Source: Roseimicrobium gellanilyticum (GTDB lineage: Bacteria; Verrucomicrobiota; Verrucomicrobiia; Verrucomicrobiales; Verrucomicrobiaceae). Taken from it: a stretch of 64,000 nt of DNA. Under the pieces are notes generated by a model. It was given only the letters and a program-made list of their open reading frames with translations. It was not told the origin of the DNA and did no database searches. The translations under genes and the position numbers were made by a program. This document shows, in pieces, positions 23,352-34,836 of the stretch. Numbering within the stretch: the stretch's first letter is position 1; each line of letters opens with the position of its first letter. The stretch lies in the NCBI RefSeq assembly GCF_003315205.1, contig NZ_QNRR01000001.1:930001-994000 (forward strand), given 5' to 3'.

Positions 23352-26300
23352 ATGCTCCGCATTCTCCTCACCCTTGCGATTCTCTGTAGCGTAGCTCACG
23401 CTGCCGATCCCATCCGCGTCTTCATCCGCAGCGGTCCGAAGTCCCACGGACCGGGGGCGCACGACTATCCCCGCTTCCTCAAGGAATGGGTGCCGCTCTT
23501 GAATGAGCGCGGTGCCAGGGCGGACGGTGGCGACTCTTTCCCCACAAAGGAACAACTCGACAAGACCGACGTGCTCATCCTGCACGCGCAGGAGGCGGGG
23601 AACATCGCCCTGGGTGAGGAGCGCAAGAACCTGATGGAATTCCTCAAGCGCGGTGGCGGACTCGTCGTCATCCACGCGGGTATCGTGTCGCGCGATCCGG
23701 ATTGGTTCAAGACCATCGCGGGTGGCTCGTGGAATCACAAGACACCGACGAAGTGGCTGGAGGCTCCCATGGCGCTCTACTTCACGGACCGCGACAATCC
23801 CATCACGAAGGACATCTCGAACTTCGACATTGATGACGAGATTTATTACGACATGGACATCCTTCCCGAGGTGAAGGTGCTCGCGGCTGCCTACACACCA
23901 AAGGCAGCGGACACTCGTGGAAAGGGAAACAAAGAAGCGCAGCAGCGTGCTGCGGAAGCCGTGGCCAAGAGGAAAGCGGTAAACATCTACGACATCCAGC
24001 CGCAGATGTGGACCTATGAGCGCACGGTGGATGGTGGCAGCACGCCTTATCGTTCCTTCGTGTGCATTCCCGGTCACCTCTACGCCAACTTCTCTAACAA
24101 CGGACTCCGCACCGCCATCCTGCGCGGCATCGCCTGGGCTGGAAAGCGCGACAACGCTGATGTGCTCTGCAAGCCGACGGAACTTGGCAGCGCTCTGCGC
24201 TACCTGCCCGGTGGTTGCCCGCCTCCGCAGGACATTCCCAAGGACCTGGAAGTGCATCCCGAGTTCAATCTCTCGCTGGTTGCCTCTGAGCCGCTCATCA
24301 ACAAGCCGATGAACATCGACTGGGATGAGAAGGGCCGTCTGTGGGTCGTCGAGACTCCTGAGTATCCCAACGGTCTTCGCCAGGCGAATGTCGAAGCGTG
24401 GAAAGACTCCGGCGCAGTCAAGCCGGGGCAGCACGAGCGTGAGCCACTCGACCGCGTCTCCATTCTCAGCGATACGGATGGTGACGGCATCATGGACAAG
24501 AAGCAGGTCTTTGCCGACAAGATCGAACTCGCAACCTCCAGCGTCTTCTACAAGAACGGCGTCATCGTCTGCGCCGCGCCGGACATCCTGTTCTTCGAAG
24601 ACACGGACGGAGATGACAAGGCGGACAAGCGCACCAAGCTCTACACCAATCTTGGTAACAAGGACACCCATGCGGTGATCAACAACATGCGTTGGGGTCA
24701 GGACGGCTGGGTGTACGCCACGCACGGCTACTCCAGCACCGAGGACGCGAAGTCCGGTGATGGTTCGAGGGGCTTCGGAGCCATCGGCGCCGGTGTGGTA
24801 CGCTTCAAACCGGACGGCAGCGCGATTGAGCAGTACGCTTCCCGTGGCGGCAATACCTGGGGCCTGGACATCACGTGGAGTGGCGAGGTCTTCTACACGC
24901 AGCCGACGAGCGGCAATCACTTCATTCATGTGGTGCTGCCTGAGTATGTGCTGGCAAAGGGCAAGCTCCCCGGCGTCTCTGGGACGAATGGACTCCTGCC
25001 TCGCGAGCCCACCTTCCCCGCCATGCACTGGGAGCAGCAGGCGTATGTGCAGATTGATCAGGTGGGCAGCTACACGGCGGCCGCTGGTTGCGCCATCTAC
25101 GAAGGTGGAGCCTGGCCTGAGAAGTGGAACTACGGCTACTTCACCACGGAGCCTACGCTGAACATCGTCAGCCACTTCATGGTGGAGCCTGATGGCGTCA
25201 CCTACAAGGCGAAGCGTGAAGCGGGTCGTGAGCACACCGAATTCATCCGCAGCAAGAATCTCTGGTTCCGTCCCATTGATGTCCGCATCGGGCCGGATGG
25301 TGCGCTCTACGTGGTGGACTTCTGCAACCAGGCCGTGATTCACAACGACACGCGTGGCCCGGTGCATGGTCCTGCCAATGCTGCCGTACGTCCTGACCGC
25401 GACCACTACTATGGCCGCATCTGGAAGGTGCAGCACAAGGATGCGAAGAAGGTGGAAGTGGCGAAGCTGAAGAAGGACGACTTCCAGCAGCTCGCGGGTG
25501 TGGTGAAGAACAGTGAGAATGTTCCGCAGAAGCAGGTGGCCTGGCGCTTGATTGCCGAGCAGCAGGGACCGCAGGGCAAGGGAGTCGTGGGCCTCGCCGA
25601 GAGCGGCATCACTCCCCGCATGGGAAGCAAGGCATTGCGCGTCTACGAGAGCATTGAAAAAGGTGTGCTCACTGCGCCGGAGTCGCTGAATGCATTCCTT
25701 GATGCCAAGGACGATTGGACTCGCTCGGCAGTCATTGCTGCGGCGAAGGACAATGCTGCGAATGAGATTGCTGCGGCCTTCGCGTCGAAGCGTGCCAGTG
25801 AACTGGGCTCCTTTGTGGAGAACCTCATTCCGGCCGCCCTTGCTGGTGATGCGGTCAAGAACACGACGAATCTGCTCAATTCCTGCGCCTCCGCAGGCCC
25901 CGGCACCGAGGCGCTTCAGTCTTCGGTACTTCGAGTGCTGGCTCAGCAGGCAGACTTGAGTCTGACCGCGCATCCCGCATTGAAGGAACCTCTGCAGAAG
26001 CTTCTGGCCAATCCTTCCACGGCAGCGGCCGCCTTGCCGCTTGCGGCCAAGTGGGACAAGGAACGCGCTTTGGCAAAGGAGCGCAAAGACGTGGTGCAGG
26101 CGCTGATGTCCAAGATGAAGGACGCGAAGGCACCGACTCAGGAGCGCCTTGCCGCGGCAAGGGGCTTCCTCGGTGCGGATGGAGATGGCGAGGCAAAGGA
26201 CCTCATTGCCGAAGCTGCCATGGAAATCGATCGCAAGGACGGTGGCTCGAAAGGGCCCTTCGTGAATCCGATGGATCTCCGCCTGGGCATCATCAAGCTC

Positions 26301-28388
26301 ATCACCGAGCGCACCGGTCCTTATGTTGCGAGTCGCTTGATGGATGCCTATGTGGATGTCGAGCCCGGAGTGCAGTTGGCAATTTTTGACGAGCTGCTCA
26401 AGCGCCCCGAGTGGGTGAATGTGATCCTGGATGAAGTGGAAAGAGGCGTTGTGAAGCCTGCTGACATCGGCCCTTCGAATGTCGCCCGCCTGCGCACGCA
26501 CCCAAACAAGCAGGTCGCCAGCCGCGCGAACAAGATGCTGGAGAAGCTGAGCCCCGCGACCGTGGAGAAGAACAAGGTCATCGCCCAGCTCACGCCGGAG
26601 GTGGAGAAGACCGGTGATGTTGCCAAGGGCAAGATCGCCTACGCGTTGTGCGCCACCTGCCACAAGCTCGGTGACACCGGTCTGGCTGTTGGCCCGCCGC
26701 TCGATGGCATGGGGGCGCACGGGCCTGCGGAACTGCTCGTGCACATCGTCGATCCCAATCGCGAAGTGGACCCGAGCTTCTGGGCGCACAACATCACGAC
26801 GAAGAAGGGCGAGGCCATCGTGGGTGTCATCACTTCAGAGAATCCATCCACGCTCACGCTCGCCACACAGGTGGGTGTGAAGGAAATTCCGAAGAGCGAA
26901 ATAGCCACGCGTGAAAACACGCGCCGCAGTCTCATGCCGGAAGGACTCGAAGCCATGGGTGCAGAGACCATGCGTGATCTCCTGGCCTACATCTGCGGTG
27001 ATGCCCAGAAGCATTTCCGCATCGTGGACCTTCGTCCCGCTTACACCGCGGACAGTCGTGAAGGCGTCTTCGCAGGGCCAAGTCCCAACCAGGGCCAGGT
27101 GCGCCTGGCAAAGTACGGCAATGTGAAGGTGGAAGGCATTCCCTTCTTCGTGCAGGACGCAGCGAAGAGCGAAAGTGGGTCGAACATCATCGTGCTCAAA
27201 GGTGGTCCGCAGAAGAGCCAGAGCTGGACTTACCCGCAACGCGTGGAAGTCGCGGTGAACGCGCAGGCGAAGAAGCTGCACCTGCTCAGTGGCATCGCTG
27301 GCTGGGGCTTCCCTGCGGTGAGAGATCACATCCCTGCGCTCAAGGCCACGGTCACCTATGAAGGTGGCGAGACGGAGGAGTTCACACTGAACAATGGGGA
27401 GGCGTTTGCCGACTACATCCGCGAGGTTGAAGTGCCGGGCAGTCAGTTGGTGAAGGAACCGATCAGCGATGATCAGCAGATCCGTCTGCTCAGCCTCACT
27501 CTGACCAAGAAGGGCGTGATCAAGAAGCTGGCGCTGGAGAGCTTCGCCAATGGTGTCGCACCGGTGGTGATTGCCGTCACTGCGGATGTGGAGGGGCGCA
27601 TGGGAGCGAAGCCAGGTGCAGCAACGGCTGCGGCTCCTGCTTCTGGCGACTCCAGTGCTCCAGGACCCAAGGAAGGTGGCAAGGGTGACAACAAGCTGCC
27701 TGCAGTGACGCCTGTTTCCTGGGAAGCTGGCAAGACCAAAGTGCTGCTCATCGGCGGTGGCAGCTCGCACAACTTCGCCAGGTTTTTTGGTGAAGTGGAT
27801 GGCGCTACGCTGAAGGCTGCGGGCTTCACGGTGCACTACACCGAAGATCGCGATCAGGCGGTCGCGGAGCTGCCGAATGCGGACGTTGCCGTCATCAGTG
27901 TGAACCGCCAGTTCTTTGACAGCCCGGCGTATCGCAAGGCGCTCTTCGACCGTGTGGCGGCTGGCAAGGGTGTCATCATGATGCACCCCGGTACCTGGTA
28001 CGCGTATCCCCGTTGGCCTGAGCTGAATGCCCAAGTCGTGGGCGGCGGATCCAAGGGACACGACAAGCTGGGACCCTACTCCGTGAATGTGACCAAGGCG
28101 GACCATCCCATCATGAAGGGGGTGCCGGCGAAGTTCGACGTGACGGACGAGCTCTACTATGTGAATGCCAAGCCCGAAGAGATCCCCGCTGGTACGGCTG
28201 GCATCGAAGTGCTCGCTGAGACGTCTCCCAGCCAGAAGTTCGGCAAGCCGCATCCCAGCGTGTGGGTCACCAAGAACGACAAGACGCGCATCGCCTGCAT
28301 CGCACTTGGTCACGATGAGCGCACGCACGAAGACGCCGCCTTCAAGAGCATCCTGGTGAATGCCGTGCAGTGGTGCTCGGGGAAGTAG
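23352..28388 (+). CDS. Giant secreted ThuA / haem-binding dehydrogenase / cytochrome c / ThuA protein
   Basis: The 1678-residue protein has a signal peptide (LRILLTLAILCSVAHAA). Domains in order: ThuA-like glutamine-amidotransferase fold (about 18-270); PVC-type membrane-bound dehydrogenase beta-propeller (about 290-720; TDGDGIMDKKQVF, GPDGALYVVDFCNQ); HEAT-like helical repeats (about 720-1085); a c-type haem site CATCHK near residue 1100; a jelly-roll-like linker (about 1220-1430); and a second ThuA domain (about 1455-1678; TKVLLIGGGSSHNF, VIMMHPGTWYAYP). ThuA proteins act in trehalose and other sugar metabolism and the dehydrogenase family is thought to oxidise sugars, so this looks like a periplasmic sugar-oxidising machine. 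Having ThuA at both ends is unusual. Confidence 0.87.
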   Translation: MLRILLTLAILCSVAHAADPIRVFIRSGPKSHGPGAHDYPRFLKEWVPLLNERGARADGGDSFPTKEQLDKTDVLILHAQEAGNIALGEERKNLMEFLKRGGGLVVIHAGIVSRDPDWFKTIAGGSWNHKTPTKWLEAPMALYFTDRDNPITKDISNFDIDDEIYYDMDILPEVKVLAAAYTPKAADTRGKGNKEAQQRAAEAVAKRKAVNIYDIQPQMWTYERTVDGGSTPYRSFVCIPGHLYANFSNNGLRTAILRGIAWAGKRDNADVLCKPTELGSALRYLPGGCPPPQDIPKDLEVHPEFNLSLVASEPLINKPMNIDWDEKGRLWVVETPEYPNGLRQANVEAWKDSGAVKPGQHEREPLDRVSILSDTDGDGIMDKKQVFADKIELATSSVFYKNGVIVCAAPDILFFEDTDGDDKADKRTKLYTNLGNKDTHAVINNMRWGQDGWVYATHGYSSTEDAKSGDGSRGFGAIGAGVVRFKPDGSAIEQYASRGGNTWGLDITWSGEVFYTQPTSGNHFIHVVLPEYVLAKGKLPGVSGTNGLLPREPTFPAMHWEQQAYVQIDQVGSYTAAAGCAIYEGGAWPEKWNYGYFTTEPTLNIVSHFMVEPDGVTYKAKREAGREHTEFIRSKNLWFRPIDVRIGPDGALYVVDFCNQAVIHNDTRGPVHGPANAAVRPDRDHYYGRIWKVQHKDAKKVEVAKLKKDDFQQLAGVVKNSENVPQKQVAWRLIAEQQGPQGKGVVGLAESGITPRMGSKALRVYESIEKGVLTAPESLNAFLDAKDDWTRSAVIAAAKDNAANEIAAAFASKRASELGSFVENLIPAALAGDAVKNTTNLLNSCASAGPGTEALQSSVLRVLAQQADLSLTAHPALKEPLQKLLANPSTAAAALPLAAKWDKERALAKERKDVVQALMSKMKDAKAPTQERLAAARGFLGADGDGEAKDLIAEAAMEIDRKDGGSKGPFVNPMDLRLGIIKLITERTGPYVASRLMDAYVDVEPGVQLAIFDELLKRPEWVNVILDEVERGVVKPADIGPSNVARLRTHPNKQVASRANKMLEKLSPATVEKNKVIAQLTPEVEKTGDVAKGKIAYALCATCHKLGDTGLAVGPPLDGMGAHGPAELLVHIVDPNREVDPSFWAHNITTKKGEAIVGVITSENPSTLTLATQVGVKEIPKSEIATRENTRRSLMPEGLEAMGAETMRDLLAYICGDAQKHFRIVDLRPAYTADSREGVFAGPSPNQGQVRLAKYGNVKVEGIPFFVQDAAKSESGSNIIVLKGGPQKSQSWTYPQRVEVAVNAQAKKLHLLSGIAGWGFPAVRDHIPALKATVTYEGGETEEFTLNNGEAFADYIREVEVPGSQLVKEPISDDQQIRLLSLTLTKKGVIKKLALESFANGVAPVVIAVTADVEGRMGAKPGAATAAAPASGDSSAPGPKEGGKGDNKLPAVTPVSWEAGKTKVLLIGGGSSHNFARFFGEVDGATLKAAGFTVHYTEDRDQAVAELPNADVAVISVNRQFFDSPAYRKALFDRVAAGKGVIMMHPGTWYAYPRWPELNAQVVGGGSKGHDKLGPYSVNVTKADHPIMKGVPAKFDVTDELYYVNAKPEEIPAGTAGIEVLAETSPSQKFGKPHPSVWVTKNDKTRIACIALGHDERTHEDAAFKSILVNAVQWCSGK

Positions 28389-28608: not shown

Positions 28609-29862
28609 TCAACCATAGCGATCTGGAGAGAGCAGCGTGAGGTCAAACTCAGGCTGCTCTTTCTCTATCAGCTGGGCCACGATGTGTCCTGTGACAGGAC
28701 CAAGACTCAGCCCCATCATCGCGTGTCCCGTGGCGATGCAGAGGTTGGAGAAGTATCGCGTGCGACCGAGGTACGGCAGCCCGTCTGGCGAACAGGGACG
28801 CAGTCCGCTCCAGGGTTCCACGTCTGCGAGGTCTTCGGGGCTGAACTCGGGAAAGTATCGGGACGCCGCATTGATGATGCCCTGCACCCGTCGTGGATTG
28901 ATGGCTTCACTCATGCCGGAGATTTCCATCGTACCGCCAAAGCGCAGCGAACCTCCTGTCATGGGAGTTACGGCAACACGTGCCTCGGTGAGGATGCTGC
29001 AGAGATGCGGAAGCTGCCGTGGGTTTGACAGGGTGAGGCTGTAGCCTTTGCCTGCCTGCATGGGTAGCCGCAAGCCCACGGACTTCGAGAATGCGGAACT
29101 CCATGAGCCGAGACAAAGAACAAACTCGTCTCCCTCCGTTTCCCCTTGAGAGGTCTTCACGGCAAGGACTCGTCCGCTTTCTGCGCAGAGAGCCTCAGCA
29201 TCCGCTCCCCACAGGAAGGCAACGCCCGCCTCCTTGCAAAGACGCTGGAGCGTGCGCATGAAGAGCTGCGGTGTGAGATGACAATCCTTGGGATAGTAGA
29301 CGGCGCCTGCCACATCCATGGTGATGCCCGGGTCCATCTCGTTGGTGTGCCGGGCATCCAGCACTTCCGCGGGCACGCCCATCTCACGCGCTACCTGCGC
29401 GCTGTCCGCCTCTTCATCGAGCGTGCGCTGCGTCTTGCAAAGCATCAATAGTCCCCGTTGATTCAGGCCAAAATCATTCTCGCATGCAGCGGCCAGTTCT
29501 TCGAAAAGCAACCGGCTGCGCAAATGCAGGTCCCGGAGCAGCGGGGAAGCCCGCTTTACATGTTCACGTGTGGCCGCCTTCCAGAAGTTCCATCCCCAAC
29601 GCAGTAGCTCAGGATCCAGTGAAGGCTTGATGTAAAAGGGAGACTCAGGATTCCACATCCACTTCAGTCCCAGTGCGACCATGCCGGGTGCGGCAAGCGG
29701 CACAAAATGACTTGGAACAATCATCCCCGCGTTCCCATACGAGCAGCCGCTTCGCTCCTCGCTGCCCCTGTCGATCACCGTGACGCGATGCCCGCGCTTC
29801 GCGACCTCCAAGGCCGTGCAAAGACCGATGACTCCTGCGCCGAGAACGATGACGTGCGACAT
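28609..29862 (-). CDS. D-amino-acid-dehydrogenase-like flavoprotein, probable D-hydroxyproline dehydrogenase
   Basis: The 417-residue DAO/DadA-family protein has an N-terminal FAD-binding motif VLGAGVIGLCTALEVAKRGH. The family C-terminal pattern is WSGLRPCSPDGLPYLGRT, then CIATGHAMMGLSLGP. There is no signal peptide. It is the last gene of the hydroxyproline operon, 30 bp after the epimerase. In the known pathway cis-4-hydroxy-D-proline is oxidised to pyrroline-4-hydroxy-2-carboxylate by such an enzyme, which the DapA-family product then deaminates. Alone it could be any D-amino-acid dehydrogenase; the neighbours make hydroxyproline likely. Confidence 0.86.
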   Translation of the reverse strand: MSHVIVLGAGVIGLCTALEVAKRGHRVTVIDRGSEERSGCSYGNAGMIVPSHFVPLAAPGMVALGLKWMWNPESPFYIKPSLDPELLRWGWNFWKAATREHVKRASPLLRDLHLRSRLLFEELAAACENDFGLNQRGLLMLCKTQRTLDEEADSAQVAREMGVPAEVLDARHTNEMDPGITMDVAGAVYYPKDCHLTPQLFMRTLQRLCKEAGVAFLWGADAEALCAESGRVLAVKTSQGETEGDEFVLCLGSWSSAFSKSVGLRLPMQAGKGYSLTLSNPRQLPHLCSILTEARVAVTPMTGGSLRFGGTMEISGMSEAINPRRVQGIINAASRYFPEFSPEDLADVEPWSGLRPCSPDGLPYLGRTRYFSNLCIATGHAMMGLSLGPVTGHIVAQLIEKEQPEFDLTLLSPDRYG

Positions 29863-29892
29863 GGTGTTGGAGGTTTCAGTCGCGTGATAACA

Positions 29893-30870
29893 CTATGAAA
29901 TGCCCCAGCAGAATGGATCGTGCGGATTCAGCAGGATTTCCCCCTCTGTCGTGACATGGGCCTCGCCCACAATGATCGGGATGATGGCTCCTGCGTCTCG
30001 GTCATGCCATCGATAGCTGCCCTTGAAAGTGCTGCCGATGATGCTCTCCTGCACCCACTCCTCGCCCTCGGCCAGCTTTCCGTCCGCGGCGAGGCATGCG
30101 AGCTTGGCACTGGTGCCGGTGCCACACGCAGAGCGGTCATATACGCCTCCAGGGCACAGCACGAAGCCCCGTGCGCTGGCATTGGGAGAGGATGGCGGTC
30201 CCACAAGTTCAATGTGGTCCACATCAGGAAAATGCTGGGGTTCGTTCACCGCTCGCCGCAGGGCGCTTGCAAATGCCGAGAGTTCACCCACGTGTTCCAG
30301 TTCGAGTTGCTGGCCGTGATTCTCCGTGATGAAAAACCAGTTGCCACCCCAGGCCACATCTCCAGTAACGGTGCCATGCCCGGGCACGTCCACGGAGATC
30401 CCAGAGGCCTTGCGAAACGATGGGACATTTTCGAGGGATACACTTCCATCCTCGCCCAGCGTGAAGCTCACAACTCCGACGCGCGTCTCCAGACGGTGCG
30501 TACCCGGCGAAATGCGACCCAGATGCGCCAAGGTGATCGCCACACCGATCGTGGCATGACCACACATGTTCAGGAATCCGACATTGTTGAAAAAGATCAC
30601 GCCCGCGATGCAGGAGGCGTCCATGGCCGGACAGAGCACGGCGCCCACGAGAACATCGGAGCCTCGGGGTTCACAGGCCACGGCCCGTCGCAGGGCATCG
30701 TACTGAGGATGGAACAAGCGCAGCCGCTTTTCGATCGCCGGAGCGTCGGCAGCAGGCACGTCTCCTTGGCGGGGGAAATGACGCAGCAAAAGAGGCAACG
30801 GATCATCAAACACCACGCGCGTGGGCTCGCCGCCGGTGTGGGAATCGATGATCCGGATCTTCTCCATCAT
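29893..30870 (-). CDS. 4-hydroxyproline 2-epimerase (proline racemase family)
   Basis: The 325-residue protein opens with RIIDSHTGGEPTRVV, the proline-racemase-superfamily signature. Both catalytic cysteines are present: Cys103 in NMCGHATIG and Cys249 in DRSACGTGTSA. The second cysteine argues against the trans-3-hydroxyproline dehydratases, which have Thr there. The epimerase converts trans-4-hydroxy-L-proline to cis-4-hydroxy-D-proline, the entry step of catabolism. Its start overlaps the trypsin-like gene's stop by 4 bp. Proline racemase is the main alternative, but the adjoining flavoprotein and DapA-family lyase favour hydroxyproline. Confidence 0.9.
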   Translation of the reverse strand: MMEKIRIIDSHTGGEPTRVVFDDPLPLLLRHFPRQGDVPAADAPAIEKRLRLFHPQYDALRRAVACEPRGSDVLVGAVLCPAMDASCIAGVIFFNNVGFLNMCGHATIGVAITLAHLGRISPGTHRLETRVGVVSFTLGEDGSVSLENVPSFRKASGISVDVPGHGTVTGDVAWGGNWFFITENHGQQLELEHVGELSAFASALRRAVNEPQHFPDVDHIELVGPPSSPNASARGFVLCPGGVYDRSACGTGTSAKLACLAADGKLAEGEEWVQESIIGSTFKGSYRWHDRDAGAIIPIIVGEAHVTTEGEILLNPHDPFCWGIS

Positions 30871-31847
30871 TCTGATCGAGATTTGGTCTTGATGAGTTTC
30901 AGCACGTTGCTGGCGGCGATGGCATCATGCAGCACCATGAGGGTGCCGGGGGCGCTGGCGGTGGTTTTGGATGGATCCTGATACACCGTCTGGATCTGGG
31001 AGACGTGACCGATGGCGTTGCCGTGAGCGTCCAGCACGGCGGACCCGCTCGAGCCCGGAGCCCATGAGGTGCTCACCTGAATCCATACCGGTTCGTCTTC
31101 ACCCTTGGTGCTGGGCGCGGGAGGTGCAGGCTTGGAGGCTGGCTTGCCGGCCTCGGGCTTGGCCGTGCCGGTGCCTGGCGCTGCCTCACGCATGTTGCTG
31201 CGGAAGGGATGCTTTGTGAAGCGATTCACGATTCCCTCACTGAAGTAGCCGCGCCTTCCTTTGGGCTCGCTGAAGCAGTACACTTTGTCACCCGGCATCA
31301 CGTCTGAGGTGAAGGGGAGGGGATTCAGCGTGGCGCCTTTCACGCGAATGATGGCGGTATCCGTGGCCCGGTTGGCTGCCAGTACTTCCACCACGGGAAT
31401 CACCTTGTCGTCTTCGTCAGCGACGATGAGGTAGCCTTCGCGGATATCTTCATTCTCCAATACATGGCCACACGTGACCACGGCATCGTTGGTGATGGCA
31501 TAGCCGCCCGCGAGGTTGAGGTGCCATTTGCTGCATTTCTTGCAGAGGTAGTGCCAGCCTACGCGGAGATGAGCGCGCCTTGCGGTATTCCACAACTCCC
31601 GGCCCTCTAGTTTTCCGGTGCGTGGCTTGGGCAGCTCCAGCTCGCAAGTGGTGCGGCTCATCTGCTCCACTACTTTTTCCATGGGGACGAGCTCGCCTTT
31701 TTCCTTCAGCCGGTTTGCTTCATCGGTGATGACGGCTTGGGACTTGGGATTGCGTCCCTCCGGGTAGATCGGCACATCAGGAGCCTGGCTGTAGAGGGTG
31801 CCGCACCCGATCAAGGTGCCAAAGATGAGGCGGGGAAGCGCGTTCAT
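30867..31847 (-). CDS. Trypsin-like serine peptidase, probable lipoprotein
   Basis: The 326-residue protein has an N-terminal lipobox-like LIGC (Cys15), so it is probably lipid-anchored outside the cytoplasm. A trypsin-fold triad is visible: His128 in VVTCGHVL, Asp163 in ATDTAIIRV, and Ser267 in APGSSGSAV. Ahead of the His strand is an extra CKKC pair (102-105) followed by SKWHLNLAGGYAITN, possibly a zinc-binding or disulfide insertion. A Pro/Lys/Ala-rich loop occupies about 223-250. It is embedded in the hydroxyproline operon, overlapping the epimerase by 4 bp and 48 bp after the DapA-like gene. Peptide release from hydroxyproline-rich protein is the context-based inference. Confidence 0.82.
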   Translation of the reverse strand: MNALPRLIFGTLIGCGTLYSQAPDVPIYPEGRNPKSQAVITDEANRLKEKGELVPMEKVVEQMSRTTCELELPKPRTGKLEGRELWNTARRAHLRVGWHYLCKKCSKWHLNLAGGYAITNDAVVTCGHVLENEDIREGYLIVADEDDKVIPVVEVLAANRATDTAIIRVKGATLNPLPFTSDVMPGDKVYCFSEPKGRRGYFSEGIVNRFTKHPFRSNMREAAPGTGTAKPEAGKPASKPAPPAPSTKGEDEPVWIQVSTSWAPGSSGSAVLDAHGNAIGHVSQIQTVYQDPSKTTASAPGTLMVLHDAIAASNVLKLIKTKSRSE

Positions 31848-31895
31848 GGTAGTGCGGCTCTGTACGGTGACCGTGAGTGCATATTACGAGCGTCT

Positions 31896-32792
31896 TCAGT
31901 TCCGCGGCCTGGAGCCGATGCCTTCACGGATGATGGCCAACACCCTTTCACGTTCGGAGCCTTCCAGGGTGAGGTGGGGTTCCCGCACCCATTCGCTGCC
32001 CAACCCGCATTCCTGGACCATCAGCTTGATGTATTGCACGAACTTGATGTGGGTATCGAGTTTCAGCAGCGGGTGAAACCAACGCAGCAGGGCGCGTGCT
32101 TCATCCCAGCGACCTGCCCGCGTATGCTCCCAGAGCCGCTGGTTTTCCTGCGGGAATGCGATGCCGCTTCCCGCCACCCAGCCATCAATGCCCAGGATGG
32201 AGCTTTCGAGAATGAGATCGTCCACTCCGGTGAAAAGTGCAAAGCGGTCTCCGTTCACGATGCGCATCTCGGTGATGCGCCGGGTGTTGCCGGAACTCTC
32301 CTTCATCGCGATGAGGTTTGGCACATCAGACAGCTCGCGCATCATCTCCGGCGTCACGTCCACCGTGTAGCCGATGGGATTGTTGTACAGCATCCATGGC
32401 AGGCTGGTTGCTGCCGCCACGGCACGGTAATAGGCCAGCGTCTCACGCGGATCTGCCTTGTACACCATGGCTGGCATCACCATGAATCCCGCCGCACCCA
32501 GCCTTTCACAGTCCTGCACATATTTGCGCGCCGTTTCGGTGCTGCACTCCGCGACGCCACTCAGCACTGGAACACGCCCCGCGCTCTGCTGCACGATGGC
32601 ACCCACCACGCTCCGCTTCTCCTCAGGCGCGAGGCTCTGATTCTCTCCCAGCGAGCCACAAACAATCATGCCGCTCACACCCGAGCGAATCAGCACCTCG
32701 GCATGACGCTGCGTTGCCTCGAGGTCCAGACTCTGATCCTTGCGAAGCTGGGTCGTGATGGCTGGAAAAACGCCGGTCCAGAGGTGGTTCAT
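31896..32792 (-). CDS. DapA-family lyase, probable pyrroline-4-hydroxy-2-carboxylate deaminase
   Basis: The 298-residue TIM-barrel of the DHDPS/NAL family has the Schiff-base lysine Lys164 in NLIAMKESSG and the catalytic tyrosine Tyr136 in LYNNPIG; GSLGENQSL (46-54) is the substrate loop. This family supplies the deaminase step of hydroxyproline breakdown, giving 2-oxoglutarate semialdehyde. It is 27 bp after the metallopeptidase and in one transcript with the epimerase and flavoprotein. By sequence alone it could be another aldolase or dihydrodipicolinate synthase. The final dehydrogenase of the pathway is not in this window. Confidence 0.85.
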   Translation of the reverse strand: MNHLWTGVFPAITTQLRKDQSLDLEATQRHAEVLIRSGVSGMIVCGSLGENQSLAPEEKRSVVGAIVQQSAGRVPVLSGVAECSTETARKYVQDCERLGAAGFMVMPAMVYKADPRETLAYYRAVAAATSLPWMLYNNPIGYTVDVTPEMMRELSDVPNLIAMKESSGNTRRITEMRIVNGDRFALFTGVDDLILESSILGIDGWVAGSGIAFPQENQRLWEHTRAGRWDEARALLRWFHPLLKLDTHIKFVQYIKLMVQECGLGSEWVREPHLTLEGSERERVLAIIREGIGSRPRN

Positions 32793-32819
32793 GGGAGTAT
32801 CAGATGGGGCTCTCCGCCG

Positions 32820-34016
32820 TCACTCAATCACCACCTTGCCGCTCTTCGGGAGTGCGACGCAGTGACCAAGGGGGTTGCCGATTTCATCCGTCACCAACCA
32901 CGCGTGACCGGCATAGGTTTGTTGCATGGAGTCCCCACTCGGCGCGACTCCTCCATAGGGTTTGCGCTCACCCTTGGTATCCACCCACCAGAGTTTCACT
33001 GCGGAGCGGCGCGTGTTGAAGAAGTGGAGCATCGTCTTCTCCTTGCCATCCAGGGAGGCGGGTGCCTGGGCTGCGTTCACGGTCACCAGCGGCACTGCGG
33101 TGTATTCTCGCGAGCTCATCAGCGGTTTCCGATTTTTCTCCTGCCATTCCACCAGGGCTCTGGGCCATTCAAACTTCGGCGCTGCTGCCACGTCCCAGCC
33201 GCGCAGGTGGACACGCTCCTCGGGCAGGCGGTCGGCGATCCGTTGGTAGCGCCAGGGTTTGTCCCCGAAGATTTCTATCAGCAGGGCTGCGAGGCCCGTG
33301 TCGTATTTCTTCAGCTCCTCGCGGGTGTTGATGTGATTGTGCTGGTTGTCGTTCTCACGATTGGTGTCGAACCAGCTCTGCACTCCCTCGGCCCAGTATT
33401 CACTTTTGTTGCTGGCGGCGTAGGTGTCTTTCCACAGGCCCGCGCTCAGGGCAGTCTCGTAAGCTGTTTCCAACCTCTTATCAAAGGTGGGATCGATGCT
33501 GTTCACTCCCATCTGATGCAGGGCATGGCCAAACTCGTGCACGCAGATGTTCTCTCGATCGTAGGGGTCGCCGGGATAGGCCAGCAAGTTCTCCGTGCCG
33601 CAGCTCACTGCGGGTCGCAGCGGAGTGGCGCCCAGGCCGCGTGCCCGCTTGTCCCAGTAGGGAGCAGGCTTCATGTCGCTGTGCTCCGGAATGGCGGTGG
33701 TGAATTCATCGTGTGCCATGATGGCGAAGCGCGTCTTGTTCGCATCGAGGGCGCGCAGGATGTCAGGGCGATGACCCAGCATGTGATTGATGATCCACGC
33801 GGTCTCATAGAGTGCGGCATCCGGGACTTTCTCCGAGGAGACAATGGAGAAGCCACTTACATCCAGATGCTTCTTGTAGAAGGGAGAGAGCCTCAGCTTC
33901 TCCACCACTTCGGCGGAGGGTGCTGATACAGTGGCGTCCTGCTTTGTTCCGGTGGTGCCATAGAGCACACTGGCGGCAAGGGCCAGGCACAGGGATGGAA
34001 TCCAGAAGTGCTTCAT
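32820..34016 (-). CDS. Secreted zinc metallopeptidase with C-terminal VHL-like beta domain
   Basis: The 398-residue protein has a signal peptide (MKHFWIPSLCLALAASVLYG). The zincin domain covers about 40-290: HEFGH at 160-164, with E206 and E210 in SEYWAEG as candidate third zinc ligands. Residues 327-398 align without gaps to the beta domain of the von Hippel-Lindau protein. In human VHL numbering N78, W88, Y98, Y112, H115 and W117 correspond to N334, W344, Y354, Y368, H371 and W373; S111 is T367. Those VHL residues include the hydroxyproline-binding pocket. The gene leads an operon of hydroxyproline catabolism, so the domain may steer the peptidase to hydroxyproline-bearing substrate. I used the ATG at 34016 because it directly precedes the signal peptide. 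Confidence 0.82.
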   Translation of the reverse strand: MKHFWIPSLCLALAASVLYGTTGTKQDATVSAPSAEVVEKLRLSPFYKKHLDVSGFSIVSSEKVPDAALYETAWIINHMLGHRPDILRALDANKTRFAIMAHDEFTTAIPEHSDMKPAPYWDKRARGLGATPLRPAVSCGTENLLAYPGDPYDRENICVHEFGHALHQMGVNSIDPTFDKRLETAYETALSAGLWKDTYAASNKSEYWAEGVQSWFDTNRENDNQHNHINTREELKKYDTGLAALLIEIFGDKPWRYQRIADRLPEERVHLRGWDVAAAPKFEWPRALVEWQEKNRKPLMSSREYTAVPLVTVNAAQAPASLDGKEKTMLHFFNTRRSAVKLWWVDTKGERKPYGGVAPSGDSMQQTYAGHAWLVTDEIGNPLGHCVALPKSGKVVIE

Positions 34017-34028
34017 TCTTGCAAGAAT
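34015..34028. promoter_or_regulatory. Perfect 14-bp palindrome over the metallopeptidase start codon
   Basis: ATTCTTGCAAGAAT at 34015-34028 is a perfect palindrome overlapping the first bases of the metallopeptidase-VHL gene, in the 73-bp gap to the divergent PAS-AraC gene. It could be a dimeric repressor operator or an mRNA hairpin hiding the start. A perfect 14-mer is unlikely by chance at this exact place but not impossible. Confidence 0.4.
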
Positions 34029-34089
34029 AGCGGAACCGGGGCCGGATGTCTTGGATGCAAACAGCGCGATCCCTGTCAATTTACGCACA

Positions 34090-34836
34090 ATGAAGCTGCC
34101 GACTGCTGGTCTCACTGGAGACTCCTGGGCCACACTGCCCATGGGTCCGATGGTGGCGTTGTTCGATGGAATGATGGATACGGTCTTCTTTGTGAAGGAT
34201 GCGGGAGGGCGGTATCTGGAGGTGAATCAGACGCTGGTGGAGCGCTGTGGACTGCGCTCGAAGTCGGAGCTTCTGGGCCGCACGGTGAGTGAAGTGTTTC
34301 CCGGAGAGTTGGCGAGGAGCTATGCGCGGCAAGATTTGGAAGTGCTGCGGCAAGGAAGAAAAATTCGCAACCGTCTGGAACTGCACTGGCAGAAGAATCG
34401 CCGTGCCGGGTGGTGCCTGACAGCGAAGGTGCCGATAAGAAGGGTGGAGGGTGAGATCATCGGCCTCGTTGGCATCTCAAGGGACTTGCAGACGCCGGGC
34501 GGTAGCGAGGGGATTCCTCCCACCCTGTCGAAGGCCATGGCCTACCTGGAAAAGCACTGCGATGACAGCGCGCTTTCTCCTGCACTGCTGGCGAGGAAGG
34601 CGGAGATGTCTCCCACACGGTTTGCGCGGCTGGTGAAGCGTGTGTTTCATCTCACGCCGGGGCAGATCATCACGCAGGCGCGCATTCAGATGGCATCACG
34701 GTTGCTACAGGAAACGGAGGGCTCAGTCGCGGAGATTGCGTTGGCGTGTGGGTATTGCGATCACAGCGCGTTCACACGGGCGTTTCGCGAGGCTACGGGA
34801 GTGACGCCGTCGCAGTTTCGTGTGGCGGTGCGGTAG
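34090..34836 (+). CDS. PAS-domain AraC-family regulator, probable regulator of the hydroxyproline operon
   Basis: The 248-residue protein has a PAS domain (about 20-120; MVALFDGMMDTVFFVKD, YLEVNQTLVERCG, GLVGISRDL). A C-terminal AraC double helix-turn-helix covers about 145-248 (SPALLARKAEMSPTRFARL, then AEIALACGYCDHSAFTRAFRE). I chose the ATG at 34090; a TTG at 34051 is in frame but nearly meets the divergent start. PAS-AraC proteins typically sit next to the catabolic genes they activate. The divergent layout with 73 bp between starts points to control of the five-gene minus-strand operon. Confidence 0.85.
   Translation: MKLPTAGLTGDSWATLPMGPMVALFDGMMDTVFFVKDAGGRYLEVNQTLVERCGLRSKSELLGRTVSEVFPGELARSYARQDLEVLRQGRKIRNRLELHWQKNRRAGWCLTAKVPIRRVEGEIIGLVGISRDLQTPGGSEGIPPTLSKAMAYLEKHCDDSALSPALLARKAEMSPTRFARLVKRVFHLTPGQIITQARIQMASRLLQETEGSVAEIALACGYCDHSAFTRAFREATGVTPSQFRVAVR

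Follow-up and report, generated by a model that had tools for sequence, protein, structure and literature searches.

Bacteria that catabolize trans-4-hydroxy-L-proline use a set comprising 4-hydroxyproline 2-epimerase (4HypE), an oxidase of the DAAO family, a deaminase of the DHDPS family and α-ketoglutaric semialdehyde (KGSA) dehydrogenase (PMC4113996), and the collagen cluster of Colwellia BB5 couples a secreted protease to hydroxyproline catabolism (PMC7883544). Algal hydroxyproline-rich glycoproteins were proposed earlier as bacterial food (PMC4454575). Human pVHL grips hydroxyproline through W88, Y98, S111, H115 and W117, with the hydroxyl bonded to S111 and H115 (PMC9528729), and a bacterial VHL-domain protein from Litorilituus sediminis has been put forward as a potential tumour suppressor (PMC9002001). 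Here we describe a locus of Roseimicrobium gellanilyticum in which a VHL domain, the domain type that human cells use to read hydroxyproline in oxygen sensing, adjoins hydroxyproline catabolic genes. The window, a stretch of 64,000 nucleotides (contig NZ_QNRR01000001.1, positions 930,001 to 994,000), carries on its minus strand, from 34016 to 28609, genes for a zincin-VHL protein, a DapA-family protein, a trypsin-like peptidase, a 4-hydroxyproline epimerase and a DAO flavoprotein, in that order. Gene content, the conserved proximity of VHL and epimerase genes within the order, multiple hydrolase fusions, pocket conservation and predicted folds lead us to propose, with a probability of roughly two in three, that VHL is a bacterial extracellular hydroxyproline-binding module that targets proline-specific hydrolases, and that the operon degrades the hydroxyproline released.

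The zincin-VHL protein (32820..34016, minus strand) has 398 residues and a Sec-type signal at its N terminus when translated from the start at 34016, which was taken in place of a longer open reading frame (ORF) from 34142 that runs into the neighbouring regulator gene. Its AlphaFold model, built with 21 sequences (mean confidence, pLDDT, 87.9), splits into two domains. VHL is the sole Pfam family in the protein (PF01847, 2e-6; 28.1 bits against a gathering score of 21) and the single VHL domain above the cut-off in the genome. The modelled beta domain (residues 319-398; 32823..33062, minus strand) superposes on human pVHL with a Z score of 12.2 and a root-mean-square deviation (rmsd) of 1.2 Å over 80 residues, and the superposition extends to hydroxyproline complexes, including that with capped hydroxyproline. 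The five pocket residues of pVHL correspond to W344, Y354, T367 (conservative for S111), H371 and W373, and a profile built from bacterial VHL domains matches human VHL at 3e-15. These positions read W-Y-S/T-H-W in 61 of the 62 VHL domains carried by S9 peptidases, while the equivalents of W88, S/T111 and H115 are kept in all 14 VHL domains carried by zincins (14/14). In an alignment of 22 S9 sequences the invariant VHL positions are the equivalents of N78, W88, Y98, G114, H115 and W117; conservation therefore falls mainly on the ligand pocket. The position of H115 differs in sulfatase-borne domains, where it is Ala in 12 of 16 and Ser in 1 of 16, and Ala is also found there in the VHL of a SASA esterase and in some fusions to leucine-rich repeats (LRR); one might speculate that the Ala marks a substituted ligand. 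A given VHL domain comes closest to domains that ride on the same type of enzyme elsewhere among the genomes, and each fusion is therefore old.

Other VHL architectures were encountered. Stand-alone VHL proteins of about 117 residues with the pocket kept occur at L164:9823-10182, L165:9912-10265 and L166:7949-8302, one of them from the sister genome of the window's. Neighbouring VHL proteins in which Ala takes the H115 position lie at L162:8370-11100 (an LRR-VHL and a SASA-esterase-VHL) and L180:4702-7435; a CAP domain is fused to VHL at L179:9818-10729, and a single 1637-residue protein at L182:5287-10200 combines a MACPF domain with five VHL-like repeats. AraC-type regulators of 389-411 residues near the epimerase operons of f2/g30 (L197:4351-5520, L199:4874-6109 and L203:819-2042) carry a weak, degenerate C-terminal VHL-like segment (E 2e-5 to 5e-6; pocket W-I-D-S-W), which is possibly a VHL-derived sensor.

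The association of VHL with the epimerase was surveyed by searching zincin, epimerase and VHL each in 190 genomes of the order, with an amino-acid log-odds filter replacing the longest ORF for gene calling at GC-rich comparison loci. Among the VHL matches listed, 101 are in epimerase-bearing genomes, and 56 of these, from 50 genomes, are separated from the epimerase by no more than 10 kb (median 0.85 kb), where chance would give about 0.35. This statistic counts matches as independent although genus g3 dominates, and the genus count is the safer measure: the linkage spans 10 genera (g1, g3, g4, g7, g8, g9, g31, g13, g14 and g19) in four families, and another order of the class supplies one more case (G739, L191). 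At least nine gene orders hold a VHL protein and the epimerase together with DapA or DAO.

Beside the epimerase, the secreted hydrolases that bear VHL are of three unrelated kinds, namely S9 prolyl peptidases of the DPPIV type (the majority), sulfatases and the zincin. Fusions to LRR, CAP and MACPF proteins, to a SASA carbohydrate esterase and to an AXE1-like esterase also occur. That relatives attach VHL to peptidases that cut at proline and to sulfatases, next to this pathway, suggests that VHL is a general hydroxyproline-grabbing module. The partners may be crowded together, as in G160 (L097), where DapA, a VHL-zincin, a sulfatase-VHL, the epimerase, a second sulfatase-VHL, an S9-VHL and DAO stand in a row, or merged, as in G054 (L084), where a single ORF of 942 residues encodes sulfatase-VHL-VHL-zincin next to DapA. 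In family f4 the g14 operon consists of a regulator, DapA, a VHL-less zincin, the epimerase, an S9-VHL and, where the contig extends far enough, DAO; such VHL-less zincins lie within the g14 hydroxyproline operons of G003, G028, G062, G036 and G040. The operon of G095 additionally carries an aldehyde dehydrogenase (ALDH).

The S9-VHL proteins, DPPIV-like by structure comparison, make up a single tight subfamily: in 18 of the 20 genomes searched all homologues above 55% identity carry VHL, and the next S9 homologues in those genomes are at or below 34% identity, one 62-residue fragment excepted. The subfamily is absent from the window genome and from its sister. More distant S9 homologues (about 39-51% identity), carried outside the phylum by Rhizobium, Sinorhizobium, Granulicella, Gemmatirosa and Spirosoma plasmids, lack VHL, and neither an epimerase nor DapA lies near them; VHL is therefore an added module, and the S9 peptidase alone is no marker of hydroxyproline operons. 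At L208:4499-9803 in Gemmatirosa an 897-residue protein that includes a PPEP-like zincin region (33%) directly precedes a VHL-less S9 peptidase; the zincin and the S9 peptidase may thus work as partners by themselves.

The catalytic domain of the window protein (residues 34-252; 33261..33917, minus strand) reaches no metallopeptidase family above the Pfam threshold. In structure, however, its model is closest to Pro-Pro endopeptidases (PPEPs): VIA-align gives a Z score of 15.0 and an rmsd of 3.5 over 187 residues against PPEP-3 (9g5j), with Z scores of 14.3 against PPEP-2 and 13.5 against PPEP-1. The next-best matches are the lethal-factor zincins, also of MEROPS M34, where the resemblance is one of fold only. 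The HEXXH motif is HEFGH (residues 160-164). Across 21 homologues H160, E161, H164 and E206 are invariant and Y199 is kept in at least 90%, and the set parallels His153, Glu154, His157, Tyr190 and Glu197 of PPEP-3, the Tyr standing seven residues before the Glu in both. Judging from the model, the zincin may cleave substrates of the Pro-Pro type. The PPEP-like zincin and the DPPIV-like S9 enzyme thus both point to proline substrates.

The operon is closely packed, the gaps being 27 bp (zincin/DapA), 48 bp (DapA/trypsin), -4 bp (trypsin/epimerase) and 30 bp (epimerase/DAO), and the genes are probably co-transcribed. The five close minus-strand genes and the divergent PAS-AraC gene described in an earlier note on this DNA were all recovered. 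The epimerase (29893..30870, minus strand; Pro_racemase PF05544, 7e-89) retains both catalytic cysteines, in the motifs NMCGH and SACGTGT, and its closest solved structures are 4-hydroxyproline epimerases such as PA1268 (2azp, 2e-104). The DAO-family flavoprotein (28609..29862, minus strand; PF01266, 3e-70), kept in sibling operons, matches the D-amino-acid dehydrogenase subfamily at 4e-87 and is the predicted cis-4-hydroxy-D-proline oxidase or dehydrogenase. The DHDPS-family protein (31896..32792, minus strand; PF00701, 3e-53) stays beside the epimerase across genera, falls under the dapA equivalog cut-off and is the predicted deaminase of Δ1-pyrroline-4-hydroxy-2-carboxylate (Pyr4H2C). Since none of the three enzymes reaches an NCBIfam equivalog cut-off, the predicted substrates of the DAO and DapA proteins are assigned from gene context. 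The earlier note's attribution of the set to hydroxyproline breakdown is supported.

The remaining features frame this core. The trypsin-like peptidase (30867..31847, minus strand; Trypsin_2 PF13365, 2e-17) is a probable lipoprotein (LIGC); a copy 83% identical adjoins the zincin-VHL in the sister genome (G056), and the gene was not found in the other sibling operons read. The regulator (34093..34836, plus strand; Pfam HTH_18 and PAS_4) has a homologue of 41-53% identity at most sibling hydroxyproline operons. Between it and the zincin gene lie 76 bp (34017..34092), by position a presumed shared promoter, in which a scan for the sigma-70 consensus returned no site. The flanking genes of the window (a ThuA/DUF7133 gene, PdxH and HPRT) are not related to the operon. 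The ThuA/DUF7133 gene (23352-28388), which adjoins the operon, encodes 1678 residues that include DUF7133 and two ThuA stretches; this flank is kept in G056.

A number of observations weigh against the proposed role of VHL. The earlier note had tied the zincin-VHL fusion itself to the pathway and had set beforehand, as the finding that would count against it, homologues lying mostly away from hydroxyproline genes; this is what the order shows for the exact fusion, as 12 of the 13 lie away from the epimerase and one, that of the window (G000), within 10 kb, and the tie holds instead for VHL proteins as a class. The sister genome, a single contig, shares the flanking genes and retains the zincin-VHL and trypsin genes at the locus, where DapA, epimerase, DAO and regulator are missing; no epimerase was found genome-wide. 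Among the matches listed, 49 VHL domains occur in 36 genomes of the order that lack the epimerase. Fragmentation of several surveyed genomes means that some VHL-epimerase distances are missing. In Planctomycetota, sampled more widely (246 genomes) after ten genomes with VHL-less zincin homologues, mostly of that phylum, had shown no VHL, the domain is present in 32 of the 246 genomes and in none within 10 kb of an epimerase; there, too, it rides on S9 peptidases, zincins and sulfatases. Elsewhere in the phylum of the window, outside the order, most VHL domains are on S9 peptidases with no adjoining epimerase. These cases indicate that the hydrolases can serve without catabolic genes nearby. 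By sequence, the zincin matches the PPEPs at a non-significant E of 0.07-0.17 over the catalytic region (alignment profile). Finally, the window operon contains neither a transporter gene nor a KGSA dehydrogenase, and the only gene in the genome resembling the latter is an ALDH on another contig, 47% identical to a sibling-operon ALDH.

It could be argued from the sister locus and the scattered zincin-VHL fusions that the two exported proteins are general secreted peptidases that came to lie in a hydroxyproline operon by chance, and that VHL, given its occurrence on LRR, CAP and MACPF proteins, is a generic adhesive or stabilizing sandwich whose conserved residues are structural. We consider this unlikely: VHL proteins as a class lie near the epimerase far more often than chance allows and with three unrelated enzyme partners, the g14 operons of another family contain VHL-less zincins, and a structural role would not obviously need the polar residues S/T111 and H115. 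A second alternative, that VHL binds sugars or sulfated glycans on proteins and not hydroxyproline, would take the sulfatase, SASA and AXE1-like esterase fusions as showing the true ligand class and would account for the mostly Ala residue at H115 in sulfatases; it is, however, harder to reconcile with the His and full pVHL pocket retained by the peptidase-borne domains, including that of the window, and with the location of sulfatase-VHLs in the same hydroxyproline operons, and we regard it as quite improbable. Less credible still, to the point of near dismissal, is proline or another cyclic amino acid as the substrate of the operon. The shortfall of all three enzymes against the equivalog models would allow it, but the epimerase matches 4-hydroxyproline epimerases best (1e-104) and proline racemases far more weakly (8e-43), it is accompanied by the same DHDPS and DAO partners as in the 4-hydroxyproline pathway (PMC4113996), and an ALDH is added in sibling operons.

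If VHL is indeed a hydroxyproline-binding module, the locus would work as follows. The first gene would supply an exported Pro-Pro-endopeptidase-like zincin whose C-terminal VHL beta domain, by analogy with a carbohydrate-binding module on a glycosidase, would bind hydroxyproline outside the cell. Hydroxyprolyl residues of collagen-like or of plant or algal hydroxyproline-rich proteins would sit in the pVHL-type aromatic pocket, and this grip would hold the catalytic domain at proline-rich segments. The products may be trimmed at the cell surface by the trypsin-like lipoprotein, and the freed hydroxyproline or short peptides, once imported, would feed into a pathway in which the epimerase, the DAO flavoprotein and the DHDPS-family deaminase are predicted to act in turn, the final KGSA dehydrogenase being encoded elsewhere. 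The complete sequence of binding, cutting, import and degradation claimed in the earlier note fits the operons of G049, G021 and G137, which additionally carry aminopeptidase P and a POT peptide transporter, better than that of the window, where the import step has no gene.

More tentatively, and against the odds in our own estimate, the VHL beta domain may be an ancient bacterial reader of hydroxyproline, in which the copies with His115 (on peptidases) grip free hydroxyproline and those with mostly Ala115 (on sulfatases and esterases) hydroxyl-substituted hydroxyproline, animal pVHL being a co-opted relative. Were the binding role correct, bacterial VHL domains would gain a function, and a class of modules would come to light that bind their substrate by recognizing not a sugar but a modified amino acid within a protein. 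It would explain bacterial attack on collagen or on plant and algal hydroxyproline-rich proteins, make it possible to test the history, before animals, of the domain on which oxygen sensing and many proteolysis-targeting chimera (PROTAC) drugs rely, and offer a possible source of small hydroxyproline-binding reagents.

Set against described systems, the window VHL shares with the beta domain of human pVHL, which reads Hyp564 of HIF-1alpha, the fold and the full set of residues of the hydroxyproline pocket, Thr replacing Ser111. In contrast to pVHL it is bacterial, exported and fused to a hydrolase, and the protein ends at residue 398, which aligns with human residue 152, and thus has no elongin-binding alpha domain. 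The zincin resembles PPEP-1/2/3 (MEROPS M34) in fold and in the HEXXH, Tyr and Glu active-site set, but differs in its lack of significant sequence similarity and in its fusion to VHL. The Litorilituus sediminis protein is likewise an extracellular bacterial VHL domain, although no connection to hydroxyproline enzymes was drawn there (PMC9002001). As in the established catabolic cluster (PMC4113996), a two-Cys epimerase, a DAO flavoprotein and a DHDPS-family gene share one operon, whereas that of the window includes two exported peptidases and leaves out the transporter and the KGSA dehydrogenase, for which a candidate lies elsewhere. With the Colwellia BB5 cluster it has in common a secreted protease, epimerase, dehydrogenase and deaminase; Colwellia has KGSA dehydrogenase alongside, its protease is an M9 collagenase, and the accessible text of that report mentions no VHL domain (PMC7883544). 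The earlier note knew of no described system that joins VHL to this pathway, and the open-licence literature likewise yielded no paper connecting bacterial VHL with hydroxyproline enzymes or peptidases; the coupling of a protease to hydroxyproline catabolism, however, was already known (PMC7883544). The new part is thus the recurrent association of VHL, hydrolases and hydroxyproline catabolism, with a conserved ligand pocket.

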